Source: Acidimicrobiales bacterium
Lineage (GTDB): Bacteria > Actinomycetota > Acidimicrobiia > Acidimicrobiales > MedAcidi-G1
Direction of reading: 5' to 3'
NCBI GenBank assembly: GCA_028823445.1
Contig: JAPKBH010000016.1
Location: forward strand, 1-40,853
Length of the DNA stretch: 40,853 nucleotides
Part shown: piece by piece, positions 8,184 through 30,624 of the stretch
Position numbering within the stretch: position 1 is the stretch's first letter
Layout of the letters: the number at the start of each line of letters is the position of its first letter
Notes under the pieces: generated by a model
Database searches by the model: none
Told to the model about the DNA's origin: nothing
What the model saw: only the letters and a program-made list of their open reading frames with translations
Program-made: the position numbers and the translations under genes

Positions 8184-9941
8184 TTGAAAAAGGGTAAAGG
8201 AACGTCGCTGACCCTAGTTGACTTCGGTCTCGGGCCTTATGTGCATGGCACCCCCAGCAAACGGTTCCCGGTATACACCCGAGGCAACGTGGGAGAGGTT
8301 TATCCCGAAGTGGTGTTCCCCTTTAGCGCTTCAATATCAACATTGATAAGCAGCGACCCGGCAGTAGAAGCCTTAGAACAAACCGGGATTTTGACCAAAC
8401 GAGAGAATCAAGAAAACGCTGATGTTCATATGGGCGCCTTCGGTGGGTACAGCTATGTGAACTTATCCGTATCACGAATAATTGCCGTGCGCACGCCAGG
8501 GGTAACGGTGGAAGAAGCCGATGCCACATTTTTAGGATCCGAAGGACTGGCCCCGCCCCATGTGCGGCAACGAGGCGACCGCAACCTCCGGGCATCTTTG
8601 CGGGGAATGCTTTATGGGCTCAAAGTGCTTAGCGGTAAACAATTGCCCGACTTAGAAAAAGAGCAACAAGTAGCACGGAGATGGCAAAAAGATCTTCCCA
8701 AAATTGCCGACGCCACAAACCAGCAGCTGTTAGCAGTATTTGTTGAGGCGGTCCCGTTGATGGGCCGTCTCTTTCGCAACCACTTATTGATAACCGGCGG
8801 CGCAGGCGCTGGTCTGAGCCTGTTGAAAATATCTTGCGAAAAGCGGTTGAACGACCATACGTTGGCACTAACGCTGCTAAGTGGTATTGGCGAGGTGGAT
8901 TCAGCTTTGCCTGCGCTGGCCTTATGGGAACTTAGCAGAATGGTCCGGGAGTCCGAAGAGCTCACTGGTTTATTTGACCAAGGGTTGGACGGTTTAAACG
9001 TACGGTTGTTGGTTGAGTCCTCTGAGGTCCTGTTTGCTCAGCGTTTTCGAGAGTTTCTCATGCGCTTTGGTAGTCGTGGCCCCAACGAGTGGGAGGTGGC
9101 CTGTGAGGTTTGGGGCACTAACCCACAGATGCCGCTGGCCATCATTGACCGAATGCGCCACGCAGAAAATGACCGCGCTCCTGTTTTAAAAAATGAAAAA
9201 TTAGCCCAAAATCGTGAAGCAGCAGTAAGTCGGGTACACGCCAAATTCGGTCCATTGGGGCGATGGAACTTTGATCGGGCGCATCGCTGTGCAATGTCTT
9301 ACAGCCAGGCCCGAGAACGATCCAAAACGGTGTTGGTGGAAATCGTGCACGATTGCCGGCTGGCTTTACGCGAACTGGGGCGGCGCATTGCTTTAGAAGG
9401 CGGTGGTCAGGCAGACGACCTGTGGTACGTGCTGCTCGAAGAATTCGAGGACTATCAAAATGACCCCGTATCAATGGTTGAAAAGATCGCCGAAAGAAGG
9501 GCCACCCGGCAGGCCCTCTCCGAATTGCTTCCTCCCTTTTGCTTTACTGGGCAAATGCCCGCCCCCAACACGTGGGAAAAACGCAGCACTAAAGCCGTGG
9601 CTTTGTTAAAGCAAGGCGACGTGATTACCGGCATCGCCGGCTGTATAGGTAAAGCGCAAGGCCGAGCTCGGGTGGTTGTCGACCCCGCTGACCCTGGCGA
9701 TCTTGGGCCCGGTGACGTGCTCATTGCCCCATTAACCGACCCCAGTTGGACGCCTCTTTTTGTGCCGGTAGAGGCGGTAGTGGTCGATGTAGGTGGCCAA
9801 ATGAGTCATGCCATTATTGTTTCTCGAGAACTCGGCCTGCCTTGTGTGGTGAGTGTCACCGACGCCACTAAACGCATTCCCGATGGGGCGCTTATTGAAG
9901 TAGACGGGGCGGCCGGAACGGTCACCGTGCTGGAGGTTTAG
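8184..9941 (+). CDS. PEP-utilizing enzyme mobile (swivel) domain protein without ATP-grasp domain
   Basis: The 585-residue protein ends with a phosphohistidine swivel domain like that of PEP synthase and pyruvate phosphate dikinase. The signature GGQMSHAIIVSRELGLPC contains the phosphorylatable His (about residue 542). The N-terminal part (TRGNVGEVYPEVV) resembles the linker region of PEP-synthase-like proteins that lack ATP-grasp, and the middle is helical and poorly recognised. It is not a complete PEP synthase or rifampin phosphotransferase. The start is doubtful: the TTG at 8184 has only a weak ribosome site. An ATG at 8126, two bases after the preceding stop and preceded by GAGTAGG, opens another frame that would join this one if one base of the AAAAA run near 8190 were removed. 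The reaction is unknown. Confidence 0.8.
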   Translation: MKKGKGTSLTLVDFGLGPYVHGTPSKRFPVYTRGNVGEVYPEVVFPFSASISTLISSDPAVEALEQTGILTKRENQENADVHMGAFGGYSYVNLSVSRIIAVRTPGVTVEEADATFLGSEGLAPPHVRQRGDRNLRASLRGMLYGLKVLSGKQLPDLEKEQQVARRWQKDLPKIADATNQQLLAVFVEAVPLMGRLFRNHLLITGGAGAGLSLLKISCEKRLNDHTLALTLLSGIGEVDSALPALALWELSRMVRESEELTGLFDQGLDGLNVRLLVESSEVLFAQRFREFLMRFGSRGPNEWEVACEVWGTNPQMPLAIIDRMRHAENDRAPVLKNEKLAQNREAAVSRVHAKFGPLGRWNFDRAHRCAMSYSQARERSKTVLVEIVHDCRLALRELGRRIALEGGGQADDLWYVLLEEFEDYQNDPVSMVEKIAERRATRQALSELLPPFCFTGQMPAPNTWEKRSTKAVALLKQGDVITGIAGCIGKAQGRARVVVDPADPGDLGPGDVLIAPLTDPSWTPLFVPVEAVVVDVGGQMSHAIIVSRELGLPCVVSVTDATKRIPDGALIEVDGAAGTVTVLEV

Positions 9942-10978
9942 TGCTCTTGTTTTAGCCGTGGAATTCCATGGGTGGGTAGCCCTGCATCGGCAAAGCGCTG
10001 GTAAAGCTCAAAAAAAGCAGGCCCGAAAGGGTCAACCCCGGTAAGGGGCATAGCGGCGCGCACAATAGTGAAATCAAAAGGGGCGAGTTCAGCGGCTTGG
10101 GCAAAGTATTTTTGCGCCGTTTCGTCTTGTTGGTTTCTTTGGGCATGTACGGCGAGGCGAAAATGAAGATGGGCTAATATCTCGTTTTCGCTCAGTCCGC
10201 TTACTTGGTGGCTGGCATCGGCGGGTAAGTTTCCGTTGAGAATCCAGTCGGTTACTTGTTCCATGTGCCCAGCGCAGGCAATACCAGTGAAATCAATAAA
10301 CATGTCGCTCCCGAATTCGGTGGCGTTAGGACGAACAATCTGATCATGTTCATCTATCCACAAAACGGTGGGCACATTGGTGATGGCAAAGAGTTCAGCA
10401 AACTGGTGTTCGGTGTCAACGAGCACCGGGTAAGTGATGCCTTCGGCGAGGGGAATCACCGCATCAATGTTTTCATCCAGAGCAACGGCGATGACCGTAA
10501 AATTGTTCCCAGCCAAGGTTTGGTGAAGTTCCTGCCACCCGGGCAGGTCAAATGCGCATCCTCACCAACTGGAAAAAGCCACCAAAAGACGCCGAGTGCC
10601 CGACCATTCGGTTAACTCTCGGGAAGCGCCGTCAAGGTCTCGCAAGGTCACGTTAGGAACCTGCCTACCCACTAAAGCATTTTCTCGTTCTTCAGCGGGG
10701 GAGCCGATAACGACCCATTGGTTCTCGGAGTCAACCAAGGTCGGACGGTTTAGTTTTTCTGCAGCGGCGAGCAGATCGAGGCCATCGTCGGTCATCAAAG
10801 ATGCTGCATCTGGCACGGGGATACACAAAGAACCTTGGCAGAGGCCTTCGGGTTTGAGTTCCCAACCTAATATTTCATCAAGAACGCTGGGCTTAACCCA
10901 GGGCTTTTGGTCTTGCCAACGGACTTCAACAGCGCTTGTCCAGTCGGCCAAAATGGTGGTTTCTTGAGATTCGTGCAT
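9938..10978 (-). CDS. Thioredoxin/redoxin-domain selenoprotein with a Sec-Gly-Cys motif (UGA read through)
   Basis: Two open frames, 10978-10565 and 10561-9938, lie in the same frame and are separated only by a TGA at 10562-10564. Read through, they give a 346-residue protein whose AhpC/TSA-like thioredoxin domain runs on without a break: VPNVTLRDLDG, LLVAFSSW, U139-G-C141, AFDLPGW, then VIAVALDE and NVPTVLWIDE. Homologous redoxins have a cysteine exactly where the TGA falls (SW-C-G-C), so the TGA most likely encodes selenocysteine. A perfect hairpin follows it (separate entry). The N-terminal 90 residues carry a CxxxxC pair (Cys47, Cys52) and the C-terminal third is helical, TPR-like. The ATG is preceded by AAAGGATC. 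The gene converges on the swivel-domain gene with a 4-base overlap. A role in thiol-disulfide or peroxide metabolism is inferred. A nonsense mutation is the alternative. Confidence 0.85.
10531..10547 (-). promoter_or_regulatory. Bacterial SECIS-like hairpin (redoxin selenoprotein)
   Basis: On the coding strand, CCTGCC pairs perfectly with GGCAGG around the 5-nt loop CGGGT. The stem begins 14 nt after the in-frame TGA and the loop lies 20 nt after it. Bacterial SECIS elements are short hairpins within the coding region just downstream of UGA, with a guanine at one of the first loop positions; this element fits. Binding by SelB is inferred. Confidence 0.7.
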
Positions 10979-26659: not shown

Positions 26660-27969
26660 TGTTTCTCCGAGGTGGCAACGATGGGGCCCAGCATGGCTTT
26701 GAGTTTCATATCGGTTTCTAAAAGCTCTCGGTCGGGGTCTGACCCTCTAACAACCCCTGCCCCGGCATACAAAGTGGTGCCGTTTTCGGTCAGCAAGGCG
26801 GAGCGTAAAGCCACCCGAAATTCCCCTCGGCCTGTTTGGTCAAACCAGCCCAAAGGGCTCGCAAACCAGCCGCGGTCCATCTCTTCGTGCTGGGCTCGTA
26901 AGGCCGCTGAAGGGGCCACGGGGTGACCAGAAACAGCGGGGGTGGGGTGCAAAGCGCCGACGATGTCAAGCAAACCGGTGCCTGTGGCGAGGTCGGCTTC
27001 GATGGGGGTGTAGAGGTGTTGGATGCCGTGCAGGCGAAGCAGTTCGGGATGTTCGGGGTGTTGGGGGTCTATTTCAAGGCTGCGAAGCGAAGCGTCGACG
27101 GCATCGACAACTACGGCGTGTTCGGCCCGCTCTTTAGGGCTGGTCATGAGGCCTTGGCCGAGGGCAGCATCGGTGGCGGCCGCTGGGTGGCGTGGTGCAG
27201 ACCCTGCGAGCGCTGCGGTGAAGAGGCGCTGGTCTTTGACGGCGGCTAAACGTTCGGGGGTGGCGCCGGCGAAGTTGGTGGCGCCTTGCCCGACACAAAA
27301 GGTGGCGCAAGCGGGGTAGGTGTGGCGCAAGGTAGACAACAAACGCCCAAGGTTGGGGCGGTGGGGCACGGTGAGCGACCGGCAGGGCACGGCTTTAGAG
27401 ATGCTTCCGCCTTCGATGATGTTTAATGCGGTGCTAACCAAGTTGCGGTAATGCCGGCGACTGGCTTCGTTTGACCAGTGGGCTGGGTCAACATCGGGGA
27501 GTGGGTCGGGGGCGGGAGCGGGGTGGGTGGGGAGCAGCCCAGTGGTTTTGTCAATGGTGGTGAGCCAGGTTTTTCCTTTGTGGCGAAGCACTTGCACGGC
27601 GGGCAAAACAATGAGTCCGGCCCCTAAAGGTGCCCAAGGGCCTTGGGCACCTTGGTCGTCAAATGAAAATCCGGCAGCCAATCGGGGAGCGGGGGCACCG
27701 GGTGGGGCGTTTACGGTGAGATTGGCAAATACTTGGTGGGCGAATAGGGCGGCCTGGTTAAAGCGGTCTGGGCCGCTTACTGGTTGGGCCATGGCTTGGC
27801 CGAGGCCCACCCACGAAATGTCGTCGTCGGGTATTTCCCAGTACCAGTGGGCTGCTTGGCCAGGGGCGGCGTTGAGCCACGCCAAGGGGTCGGTGCCAGG
27901 GCCTTCGGTGAGGGCCACCGTGGTGGCGGTGTGGTTGGAGCGGGGGAGGGGTTGAGCGGCTAGTGCCAT
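26656..27969 (-). CDS. menF: Isochorismate synthase
   Basis: MenF isomerises chorismate to isochorismate, the first committed step of menaquinone synthesis. The 437-residue protein has the chorismate-binding signature: GGSISKAVPCRSLTV, FAGATPERLAAV, ALAGSAPRHP, LHPTPAVSGHP and the C-terminal LYAGAGVVRGSDPDRELLET with metal-binding glutamates. Salicylate or enterobactin isochorismate synthases share this fold, but the menD neighbour points to menaquinone. It overlaps the upstream MerR gene by ten bases. Confidence 0.93.
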   Translation of the reverse strand: MALAAQPLPRSNHTATTVALTEGPGTDPLAWLNAAPGQAAHWYWEIPDDDISWVGLGQAMAQPVSGPDRFNQAALFAHQVFANLTVNAPPGAPAPRLAAGFSFDDQGAQGPWAPLGAGLIVLPAVQVLRHKGKTWLTTIDKTTGLLPTHPAPAPDPLPDVDPAHWSNEASRRHYRNLVSTALNIIEGGSISKAVPCRSLTVPHRPNLGRLLSTLRHTYPACATFCVGQGATNFAGATPERLAAVKDQRLFTAALAGSAPRHPAAATDAALGQGLMTSPKERAEHAVVVDAVDASLRSLEIDPQHPEHPELLRLHGIQHLYTPIEADLATGTGLLDIVGALHPTPAVSGHPVAPSAALRAQHEEMDRGWFASPLGWFDQTGRGEFRVALRSALLTENGTTLYAGAGVVRGSDPDRELLETDMKLKAMLGPIVATSEKQ

Positions 27970-28691
27970 TGGCTGGTCACTACTAACTGTTCTGGGTCAA
28001 CAGATTGCAAGGCTTCGGCTAAGGCGTGGCGTTGGCCATCGTCGGCCCGGGCTAGAGCGTGGCTTACTAGCGTGCGGTGAAAGTGTTGAGCAATGAGTCG
28101 GGTGACCGCCGGGAGCAGGGTGTGGATGATGGCTACCAGGTCTTCGTCGGAGTCGGCGGGGGTTTTGATGTGGTGGTCAAAGAGGGCGATGGCTCGGTCC
28201 ACAATGTCGTCAATGTTGGCGGCGTGGTCGGCAGCAAGGGCGACCAGTTGGTCAAGGGGGACCCCAGCGTTGCTAACGGCTAACCCGGCTTCGACCATGG
28301 CTACGGCACTCTGGGAAAATCGAGGTTGGCCCGCTACCACAGTGGGTTGCAGCAAACCGTTGTCGCAAAGCAGGGTGACCAGGCTCTCGGGAACACCGGC
28401 TTGGTCGGCTACTTGGCTTCGGTTCAAGGTAGCGCTTTGAGTGAGGGGACGTACTTCGTTTGCTTGGCCGGCGGCCAGGTCGGCAATTTGGTTGAGGGTC
28501 AGGCCGGCGGCGGCCAGTTGGCGAATTTCTTGGAGTCGTTCGAGATGCTGAGGGGTGTATTCGCTGTGGCGGGCGATGCGTTGCGGTGGGTCAAGGAGGC
28601 CGCGACGTTGGTAATAGCGCACGGTGTCGACGCTGAGCCCGGCGGCGGAAGCCAAGGCATCAACGCGGTAGGTGGTGGGGTGTTCGGTCAC
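27960..28691 (-). CDS. MerR-family transcriptional regulator with two winged-helix domains
   Basis: The 243-residue protein begins with a MerR DNA-binding domain: YRVDALASAAGLSVDTVRYY, then QRRGLLDPPQR and HLERLQEIRQLAAAGLTLNQI. A second, similar motif follows at about 88-150 (LNRSQVADQAGVPESLVTLL, then FSQSAVAMVEAGLAV and GVPLDQLVALA), so it appears to carry a tandem pair. The C-terminal 90 residues are helical and unassigned; no metal-binding cysteines are visible. The first gene of the men operon, it overlaps menF by ten bases and is divergent from the GrdB-like selenoprotein gene 93 bases away. GTG is the start. It probably regulates itself (see its promoter). Confidence 0.85.
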   Translation of the reverse strand: MTEHPTTYRVDALASAAGLSVDTVRYYQRRGLLDPPQRIARHSEYTPQHLERLQEIRQLAAAGLTLNQIADLAAGQANEVRPLTQSATLNRSQVADQAGVPESLVTLLCDNGLLQPTVVAGQPRFSQSAVAMVEAGLAVSNAGVPLDQLVALAADHAANIDDIVDRAIALFDHHIKTPADSDEDLVAIIHTLLPAVTRLIAQHFHRTLVSHALARADDGQRHALAEALQSVDPEQLVVTSQWH

Positions 28692-28784: not shown

Positions 28785-29684
28785 ATGAACGCTCCCGATG
28801 CATCAGTCGATTACATCGCCCGAACCCGCGAGCAATACGACTCGCTGGGTTACCCGCCTTACTTATGGGCCGAACGGCCTGACACCCCGCCGTGGTCACC
28901 CATAACCCGCCCTTTGGCGGAGTCAACGGTGGCTCTTTTGGGTTCAGGGGGCGGCTACAACCGCGGTCAGGTGGCATTCCATTGGAAAGACGACACCGGC
29001 ATTCGTCTGTTGCCCAGCAATCAGCCAGCTTCTGATGTGCGGGTAACGCATTTTGCTTACGATCTCGAACCGGCCCGCGCCGACCCCAACATTGTGTTCC
29101 CTCTGGACCGCCTCAACGACCTGGTAGAAGAAGGGTTTATTGGAGGACTGGCCTCGCAATCCATAGCTTTTATGGGCGGCATTTATTCGGTGCGGCGAGC
29201 CGAAGAGGAACTCACCCCGGCCATTCTTGACGCCGTTGAAGCTCTCGCGGAAGACATCGACTTGGCGCTACTCGTACCCGTTTGACCGGTGTGCCACCAG
29301 ACCGTGAGTCTGGTAGCGCGAGCGCTTGAAGCGGTGGGAGTCCCCACCCTCACCTTGACTGCCGCTTACAGCATTACCGCTTCGGCCAACCCGCCGCGGG
29401 CCGCTTATGTAGAAATGCCTTTGGGCTATACCGCAGGCCGGCCCGGTGACCGTGAGTTTCAGTTGAACTTATTGCGTAAAGCGTTGACCCTTGGAGTAGC
29501 CATCGAAACCCCGGGCACCATTGTCGACACCGGCGTGCGTTGGAGCGAAGACCGCTCGTGGAAATCGGCGGCCTCAAGCGGGTTAAACAATGGGGTAATT
29601 TCTGCCGAAGGAGACACTCGTCAAGAACGGGTGGACACTCCCCAATATCAAAGCGAAGACGACCGCCTCGCTGCCGAAGCGTAG
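28785..29684 (+). CDS. GrdB/PrdB-like selenoprotein with a UxxC motif (UGA read through)
   Basis: Two open frames (28785-29282 and 29286-29684) are in the same frame with only TGA at 29283-29285 between them. Read through, they make a 299-residue protein whose centre reads LALLVPV-U167-P-V-C170-HQTVSLVARALE. This is the signature region of the selenoprotein-B family of glycine/sarcosine/betaine/D-proline reductases and their relatives, where selenocysteine or cysteine occupies the first position of a UxxC or CxxC pair. The N-terminal region (LLGSGGGYNRGQVAFHW, RVTHFAYDL, FPLDRLNDLVEEGFIG) and the C-terminal region (PPRAAYVEMPLGYTAGRPG) are both conserved in character. A hairpin follows the TGA (separate entry). 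The gene is divergent from the MerR-men operon. Its substrate is unknown; grdA-like partners are not visible. Confidence 0.87.
29296..29314 (+). promoter_or_regulatory. Bacterial SECIS-like hairpin (GrdB-like selenoprotein)
   Basis: ACCAGAC (29296-29302) pairs perfectly with GTCTGGT (29308-29314) around the loop CGTGA. The loop begins 17 nt after the in-frame TGA. Stem length, loop size, loop guanine and distance match bacterial SECIS elements and closely match the hairpin in the redoxin gene. Confidence 0.72.
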
Positions 29685-29697
29685 AAACGAGAACCTG

Positions 29698-30624
29698 ATG
29701 CCATTGGACCCCGCCCTTGAACCTCTGCTGGCTTTGCTACCTTCGTCGGGTGAAGACCTCAGCCTGATTACCCCAGAAATGATGCGCGCCAATTATGAAC
29801 TGATGGCCGACCCAAACGGCCCGGCGGTTGCTTCGGTAGAAGACCTCAACATTCCCGGGCCGGAGAGTGAAATCCCGGTACGGGTTTATCGTCCGGATGA
29901 AACAACCGCCTTGGCACCGGTCATCATGTTTTTCCACGGCGGGGGGTGGGTGATTGGCAGCCTAGAAACCCATGATGAGGTGGCCCGAGCCATGGCCAAC
30001 GAAACTGGGGCAGTGGTGATAGCGGTGGATTACCGGTTGGCCCCTGAACACCCCTACCCGGCGGCGGCCGACGATTGCTACGCCGCTACTTGCTGGGTGG
30101 CAGACCACGCCGACACTTTGAAAGTAGATGCGCAACGTTTGGCGGTGGCCGGCGATAGCGCAGGCGGAAACTTGGCCGCCGTGGTGGCATTGATGGCTCG
30201 AGATAAAGATGGCCCGGCTATTGCTTTTCAATCATTGATCTACCCGGCGGTAGATATGGACAGCGACCGTTGGCCCTCTATGGCGGCCAATGCAGAAGGC
30301 CCCCTGCTTACCCGCGACGCCATGCATTGGTTCTGCCAGCATTACGTTGGGCAGCAAAAACTTATTGACGACCCTTATGCCGCTCCACTGCGAGCCGACA
30401 GTTTGGCCGGGTTGCCGCCCGCTCACGTAACTACTGCACAATATGACCCGTTGTGTGATGAAGGCCTGGCCTACGCAGAGGCGCTAACTGCTGCGGGCAC
30501 GGCATGCGAAGTGGAGTGCTTTGACGGGCTTATCCATGGGTTCATGAGTTTTGTTGCTGTGGTGCCTGCCGCGGCCGTTGCACAACAAAAAATATTTTCC
30601 GCACTTAAAGCGGGGCTGGCTTAA
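29698..30624 (+). CDS. Alpha/beta hydrolase esterase, hormone-sensitive-lipase family
   Basis: This 308-residue protein is an HSL-type esterase: the oxyanion-hole motif FFHGGGWVIG, VDYRLAPEHPYPAA, the nucleophile VAGDSAGGNLAA, the acid in YDPLCDEGLAYA and the histidine in GLIHGFMSF. It would hydrolyse short-chain carboxylic esters in the cytoplasm; no signal peptide is seen. It follows the selenoprotein gene by 13 bases and precedes the LMW phosphatase gene by six, so these genes may be co-transcribed. Confidence 0.92.
   Translation: MPLDPALEPLLALLPSSGEDLSLITPEMMRANYELMADPNGPAVASVEDLNIPGPESEIPVRVYRPDETTALAPVIMFFHGGGWVIGSLETHDEVARAMANETGAVVIAVDYRLAPEHPYPAAADDCYAATCWVADHADTLKVDAQRLAVAGDSAGGNLAAVVALMARDKDGPAIAFQSLIYPAVDMDSDRWPSMAANAEGPLLTRDAMHWFCQHYVGQQKLIDDPYAAPLRADSLAGLPPAHVTTAQYDPLCDEGLAYAEALTAAGTACEVECFDGLIHGFMSFVAVVPAAAVAQQKIFSALKAGLA

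Follow-up and report, generated by a model that had tools for sequence, protein, structure and literature searches.

The gene at positions 28785-29684 of the window (the whole 40,853-nucleotide stretch of Acidimicrobiales DNA analysed here) almost certainly encodes a selenoprotein, in which an in-frame TGA is translated as selenocysteine (Sec). Judged by sequence comparison, its product is a member of the GrdB/PrdB superfamily and is not PrdB proper. The best overall explanation, which we consider likely, is a Sec-inserted UxxC selenol/thiol reductase of this superfamily that works alone or with other partners. That it acts reductively by itself is held a little less firmly and still appears probable. 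The UxxC redox cycle and the stand-alone action are the parts of this explanation that we infer.

The in-frame TGA and its recoding

The gene contains the following features:

28785..29684, forward strand: gene for the PrdB-like selenoprotein (299 amino acids, Sec as U167), ending in the stop codon TAG at 29682-29684
29283..29285, forward strand: TGA translated as selenocysteine (U167, forming UxxC together with C170), based on the codon column in 73 homologues and on annotated PrdB
29292..29294, forward strand: codon of the UxxC partner of Sec, Cys170, invariant in the alignments and TGA in L113 and L115
29296..29314, forward strand: bacterial SECIS-like hairpin, pairing conserved, with three pairs changed on both sides

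An earlier note on this DNA had described two same-frame ORFs parted by only a TGA, and this is indeed the case: the codon at 29283-29285 is the sole break between 28785-29282 and 29286-29681, giving one 299-codon read-through frame. Its centre reads LALLVPV-U-PVC-HQTVSLVARALE, with Sec as residue 167 and Cys as residue 170. The window contains 22 frame pairs that are joined by a TGA and have 60 or more codons on either side; in only two of them does a redox motif surround the TGA: the present one on the forward strand and another at 10562-10564 on the reverse strand (SSW-U-GC). The latter lies in a second selenoprotein of the window (9938-10978, reverse strand), a ResA-like protein whose best NCBIfam match is WAxxUGC_long (184 bits against a cut-off of 300).

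The gene has a match in 46 of the 48 genomes of the same bacterial family, and every same-family orthologue covering the site (44/44) contains exactly one TGA, never TAA or TAG. Matches, with paralogues included in the counts, are found in 111 of 298 genomes at the order level and in 75 of 396 genomes drawn from the phylum; none were found among phages and viral contigs. The closest named relatives are marine Acidimicrobiales, AG-410-I20 (76%) and MedAcidi-G2B (73%). In an alignment of 73 sequences, the codon for residue 167 is TGA in 65, TGC in seven and TGT in one. Besides this Sec/Cys position, P165, P168 and C170 are invariant, as are several residues away from the motif (Y10, W28, R86, H89, D93 and MGGIYS at 130-135). 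The eight homologues with TGC or TGT agree with the earlier proposal that relatives use Cys at the Sec site, and the column holds no other codons. The Cys forms come from a Desulfobacteraceae metagenome-assembled genome (locus L092) and from Beta- and Alphaproteobacteria. In the maximum-likelihood tree L092 is nested among the Sec forms; more than one exchange between Sec and Cys has therefore probably taken place. Two actinobacterial relatives, L113 and L115, have two in-frame TGAs, which give U-P-I-U, a double-Sec UxxU centre.

Bacterial SECIS elements have their apical loop about 16-37 nt past the TGA, with a G near the start of the loop. Directly downstream of the TGA lies the perfect 7-bp hairpin that had been pointed out before, ACCAGAC/GTCTGGT (29296-29302 and 29308-29314), with the loop CGTGA (29303-29307) located 17 nt after the TGA and a G near its start. 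The 71 nt around the hairpin fold with z = -2.9 against dinucleotide shuffles. Across 59 distinct Sec sequences, an 8-bp helix pairs in 88.6% of cells, and double changes are seen at pairs 15/31 (CG to UA), 18/28 (GC to AU) and 19/27 (AU to UA). Two genomes have CAA for CAG at a Gln codon, both with Leu TTG opposite, so that the pair is kept. The GU of the loop is mostly conserved. In one subclade two or three of the pairs are mismatched (unpaired cells at three pairs: 16, 15 and 23), and part of the stem is retained in Cys homologues. Compared with synonymous recodings, the fold is better at p<0.05 in 23 of 60 TGA forms against one of eight Cys forms, with p 0.025 for the window gene. An Rfam search of 26-32 kb returned no SECIS or other RNA family, apart from one chance miRNA match. 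Taken alone, the hairpin lends modest support to Sec insertion; the case is carried by the conservation of the TGA and by the machinery of the host.

The genome to which the window belongs, as contig 43, spans 1.93 Mb and is 95% complete; in contrast to the absence of sel genes named earlier as grounds for refutation, it encodes the full set. SelB (267.8 bits over cut-off) is directly adjoined by SelA (394.6 bits), and a tRNA-Sec with anticodon UCA (tca; 63.4 bits) is found on the same contig. SelD (359 bits; contig 38, 40067-40987, locus L106) has its own in-frame TGA, within GAG-U-GCK. A cysteine-desulfurase-like aminotransferase frame is situated directly upstream of SelD. The complete machinery, the conserved TGA and the Cys/Sec exchange at residue 167 together support the selenoprotein first proposed from the letters of the window.

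Place in the GrdB/PrdB superfamily

Profile similarity over the Sec domain places the protein in the superfamily by homology. Its relation to GrdB and PrdB, proposed earlier, is supported, and it is closer to PrdB: TIGR04483 (PrdB, NCBIfam) matches with 143.9 bits (E 5e-42), below the equivalog cut-off of 300, while GrdB-type NCBIfam models reach 25-38 bits. Over their full length, TIGR01917 and TIGR01918 score 26.7 against 602 and 24.7 against 65.45, both under the cut-offs. The Pfam model PF07355 (GRDB) is passed at 25.1 bits against a gathering threshold of 22, over 58 residues only; of the 42 alignment members, 40 match this model. Aligned over the core, the PrdB proteins annotated in Terrisporobacter, Peptoclostridium, Ligilactobacillus and Enterococcus plasmid records have their Sec at the position of residue 167 and their Cys at 170, as does a homologue from Acetoanaerobium that has no annotation. 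In the maximum-likelihood tree the clade of the window protein has support of 99/93; PrdB stands apart (100/99) on a long branch, a position that falls under the program's long-branch cautions.

The same genome encodes a paralogue, a PrdB-like selenoprotein of 395 aa with its own TGA (LLTPV-U-PLC; contig 14, 5064-5693; locus L002 1447-2631, L049 5010-6197). Its neighbours are LLM-type oxidoreductase-like, SRPBCC-like and acyl-CoA-dehydrogenase-like frames.

Neighbouring genes, active site and proposed reaction

The genes flanking the selenoprotein gene are:

27960..28691, reverse strand: MerR-type regulator, divergent, a conserved neighbour within the bacterial family
29698..30624, forward strand: alpha/beta hydrolase of the hormone-sensitive lipase family (LipP1-type), immediately downstream, present in only 10 of the loci compared

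The hydrolase is probably not a functional part. Within the family, the selenoprotein gene stays beside the menaquinone genes (menF, menD, menH, menC-like) and the MerR gene, with the hydrolase joining them in some genomes; outside the family this context is lost. Since the conservation of the MerR and menaquinone genes is confined to the family, it is read as inherited gene order rather than as a functional link.

Elsewhere, in unrelated genomes, two kinds of gene are repeatedly found right next to PrdB-like genes:

L092 4814-5968, L099 7115-8308, L103 7048-8322: family III CoA-transferase genes, identified by Pfam
L091 5089-5931, L093 7150-7962, L109 2526-3377: crotonase genes

In the Cys forms L099-L103, of which L099 is from Lacisediminimonas, the gene that follows encodes a family III CoA-transferase (identified in L100-L102 by a near-identical start only), and a frame occupies the same place in L104; in L092 the CoA-transferase overlaps the PrdB-like gene upstream. 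These neighbours hint at acyl-CoA or carboxylic-acid metabolism.

An AlphaFold2 model of the read-through protein, with Cys for Sec, is confident (mean pLDDT 91, pTM 0.91) and places residue 167 after a strand (160-164) and before a helix (168-183). PDB searches by single sequence and by profile gave no match, and Foldseek with VIA-align of the model gave none with Z of at least 8, returning only common Rossmann-like arrangements. As no structure of known function was matched, the reading of the active site rests on sequence and on position in the model. SelB, tRNA-Sec and the SECIS hairpin just past the TGA would insert selenocysteine at residue 167. The Sec167 selenolate, at the helix start after the beta strand, would then attack an electrophilic atom of a small substrate, and the adduct would be resolved by Cys170 to leave a Se-S bridge, recycled by cellular thiols or thioredoxin. 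The conserved UxxC supports selenolate attack followed by resolution through Cys170.

Rather doubtful, though the best surviving alternative, is a selenol-dependent thiol:disulfide or peroxide-type oxidoreductase serving redox housekeeping or antioxidant defence, with no cleavage of a substrate C-X bond. A UxxC at a helix start is indeed what thiol oxidoreductases have, the same genome encodes the ResA-like WUGC selenoprotein, some relatives have UxxU, and no substrate-activating partner accompanies the gene. However, the homology is to the substrate-reducing PrdB and GrdB, a thioredoxin fold was not matched, the many invariant residues off the motif suggest a substrate pocket, and CoA-transferase and crotonase genes adjoin the Cys relatives.

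Much less probable is a genuine subunit of D-proline (or glycine/betaine) reductase, with pyruvoyl or electron-transfer partners that are too divergent for detection or are encoded in the 5% of the genome that is missing. PrdB is the best family match and has an identical Sec column, and within this marine Acidimicrobiales family a full-length GrdE-type protein is present in two genomes (PF09338, >313 bits; G031:C45:53450-54754 and G045:C24:66083-67387), a profile match which suggests that a real glycine/betaine/sarcosine reductase may operate there. Against such a subunit, neither PF09338 (GrdE/PrdA) nor PF04723 (GrdA) was found in the window's genome or in a same-genus genome, in searches covering GrdE/PrdA- and GrdA-type partners, which subunits unlike GrdE/PrdA would escape. 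The same searches detected both in control records (three of them for PF09338). PF09338 is also absent in 46 of the 48 family genomes, and nearly all of these 48 have a PrdB-like gene; the PrdB-like protein is thus kept without a detectable pyruvoyl subunit. The PrdB operons used as controls have prdA and prdD nearby, together with prdC in Terrisporobacter, unlike the window gene, which has none of the three beside it; the sub-equivalog score and the separate clade argue in the same direction. The lack of Grd/Prd partners, first noted for the window, holds genome-wide in these searches, and all of the evidence is consistent with the earlier suggestion that the reaction may differ from that of Stickland reductases. 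Finally, a TGA acting as a true stop, whether between two short genes, in a pseudogene or through a sequencing error, can be set aside: a GTG start does follow immediately at 29289, but a lone TGA is kept in all same-family orthologues covering the site, with Cys in other homologues, the Sec machinery is full, and a single confident model spans the TGA.

With the UxxC selenol/thiol reductase as the preferred explanation, the absent partner bears on what it might reduce. In D-proline and glycine reductases, a carbonyl (pyruvoyl) of the partner subunit activates the amine, and the selenolate attacks the alpha carbon. As this carbonyl subunit is absent, a simple amino acid is probably not the substrate, which should instead already be electrophilic. 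We tentatively propose, as a possible specific form, that a stand-alone clade of Actinomycetota and some Proteobacteria performs selenolate reductive cleavage of a new substrate class without a pyruvoyl partner. Candidate substrates would be, for example, activated carboxylic acids or acyl-CoAs, from the family III CoA-transferases and crotonases adjoining the Cys relatives, or halogenated acids, by analogy with the proposal for fluoroacetate reductase.

Comparison with known systems

PrdB and the window protein share homology over residues 35-246, UxxC in the same columns, and the FP-DRL, MGG and IPT motifs. They differ at the centre (TAGUGTCHR in PrdB, VPVUPVCHQ here), in terminal extensions that PrdB does not have (N-terminal, about 30 residues; C-terminal, about 50, with the motif TPQYQSEDDR), and in the missing PrdA/PrdC/PrdD neighbours and GrdE/PrdA-type gene. 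The selenoprotein B of glycine, sarcosine and betaine reductases (GrdB/GrdF/GrdH; PF07355) has a homologous Sec site, but the GrdB profile is matched in the C-terminal part only, and the window's genome has neither GrdA nor GrdE. The Alpha- and Betaproteobacterial proteins annotated as “glycine/sarcosine/betaine reductase selenoprotein B family protein” share a length of about 300 aa and a CPVCHQ centre; they differ in having Cys for Sec and form a separate clade (100/100). In the fluoroacetate reductase FarB/FarE, which is GrdB/GrdE-like, cleavage of the C-F bond has been proposed (PMC10838667). Likened by description, it shares the proposed adaptability of the superfamily to other electrophilic substrates, but FarB has a GrdE-like partner and belongs to anaerobic amino acid fermentation (PMC10838667). 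No characterised substrate of a PrdB-like protein acting alone was found in the literature searched.

Marine metagenomes have yielded UxxC “proline reductase PrdB” selenoproteins since 2005, with 42 genes described from the Sargasso Sea (PMC1088965). The GOS data added 235 UxxC “PrdB” sequences (PMC2398784), and a later survey put their share of marine selenoprotein genes at about 6% (PMC9402790). The window gene, likened by description, very probably belongs to this set, with which it shares the UxxC, a PrdB label given by homology and membership of one of the commonest marine selenoprotein families (PMC1088965, PMC2398784). In contrast to those metagenomic sequences, it is assigned to a named lineage (marine Acidimicrobiales), a tree sets it apart from true PrdB, and the absence of partners was tested. 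Because the searches did not turn up the proteins that proline reduction requires, the “proline reductase” label is probably wrong in this lineage. New here are its lineage, its distinction from PrdB, a tested lack of partners and the series of Sec, Cys and double-Sec forms, a clean gene set in which the real substrate can be sought. One of the commonest marine selenoprotein families is thereby tied to a defined actinobacterial lineage.
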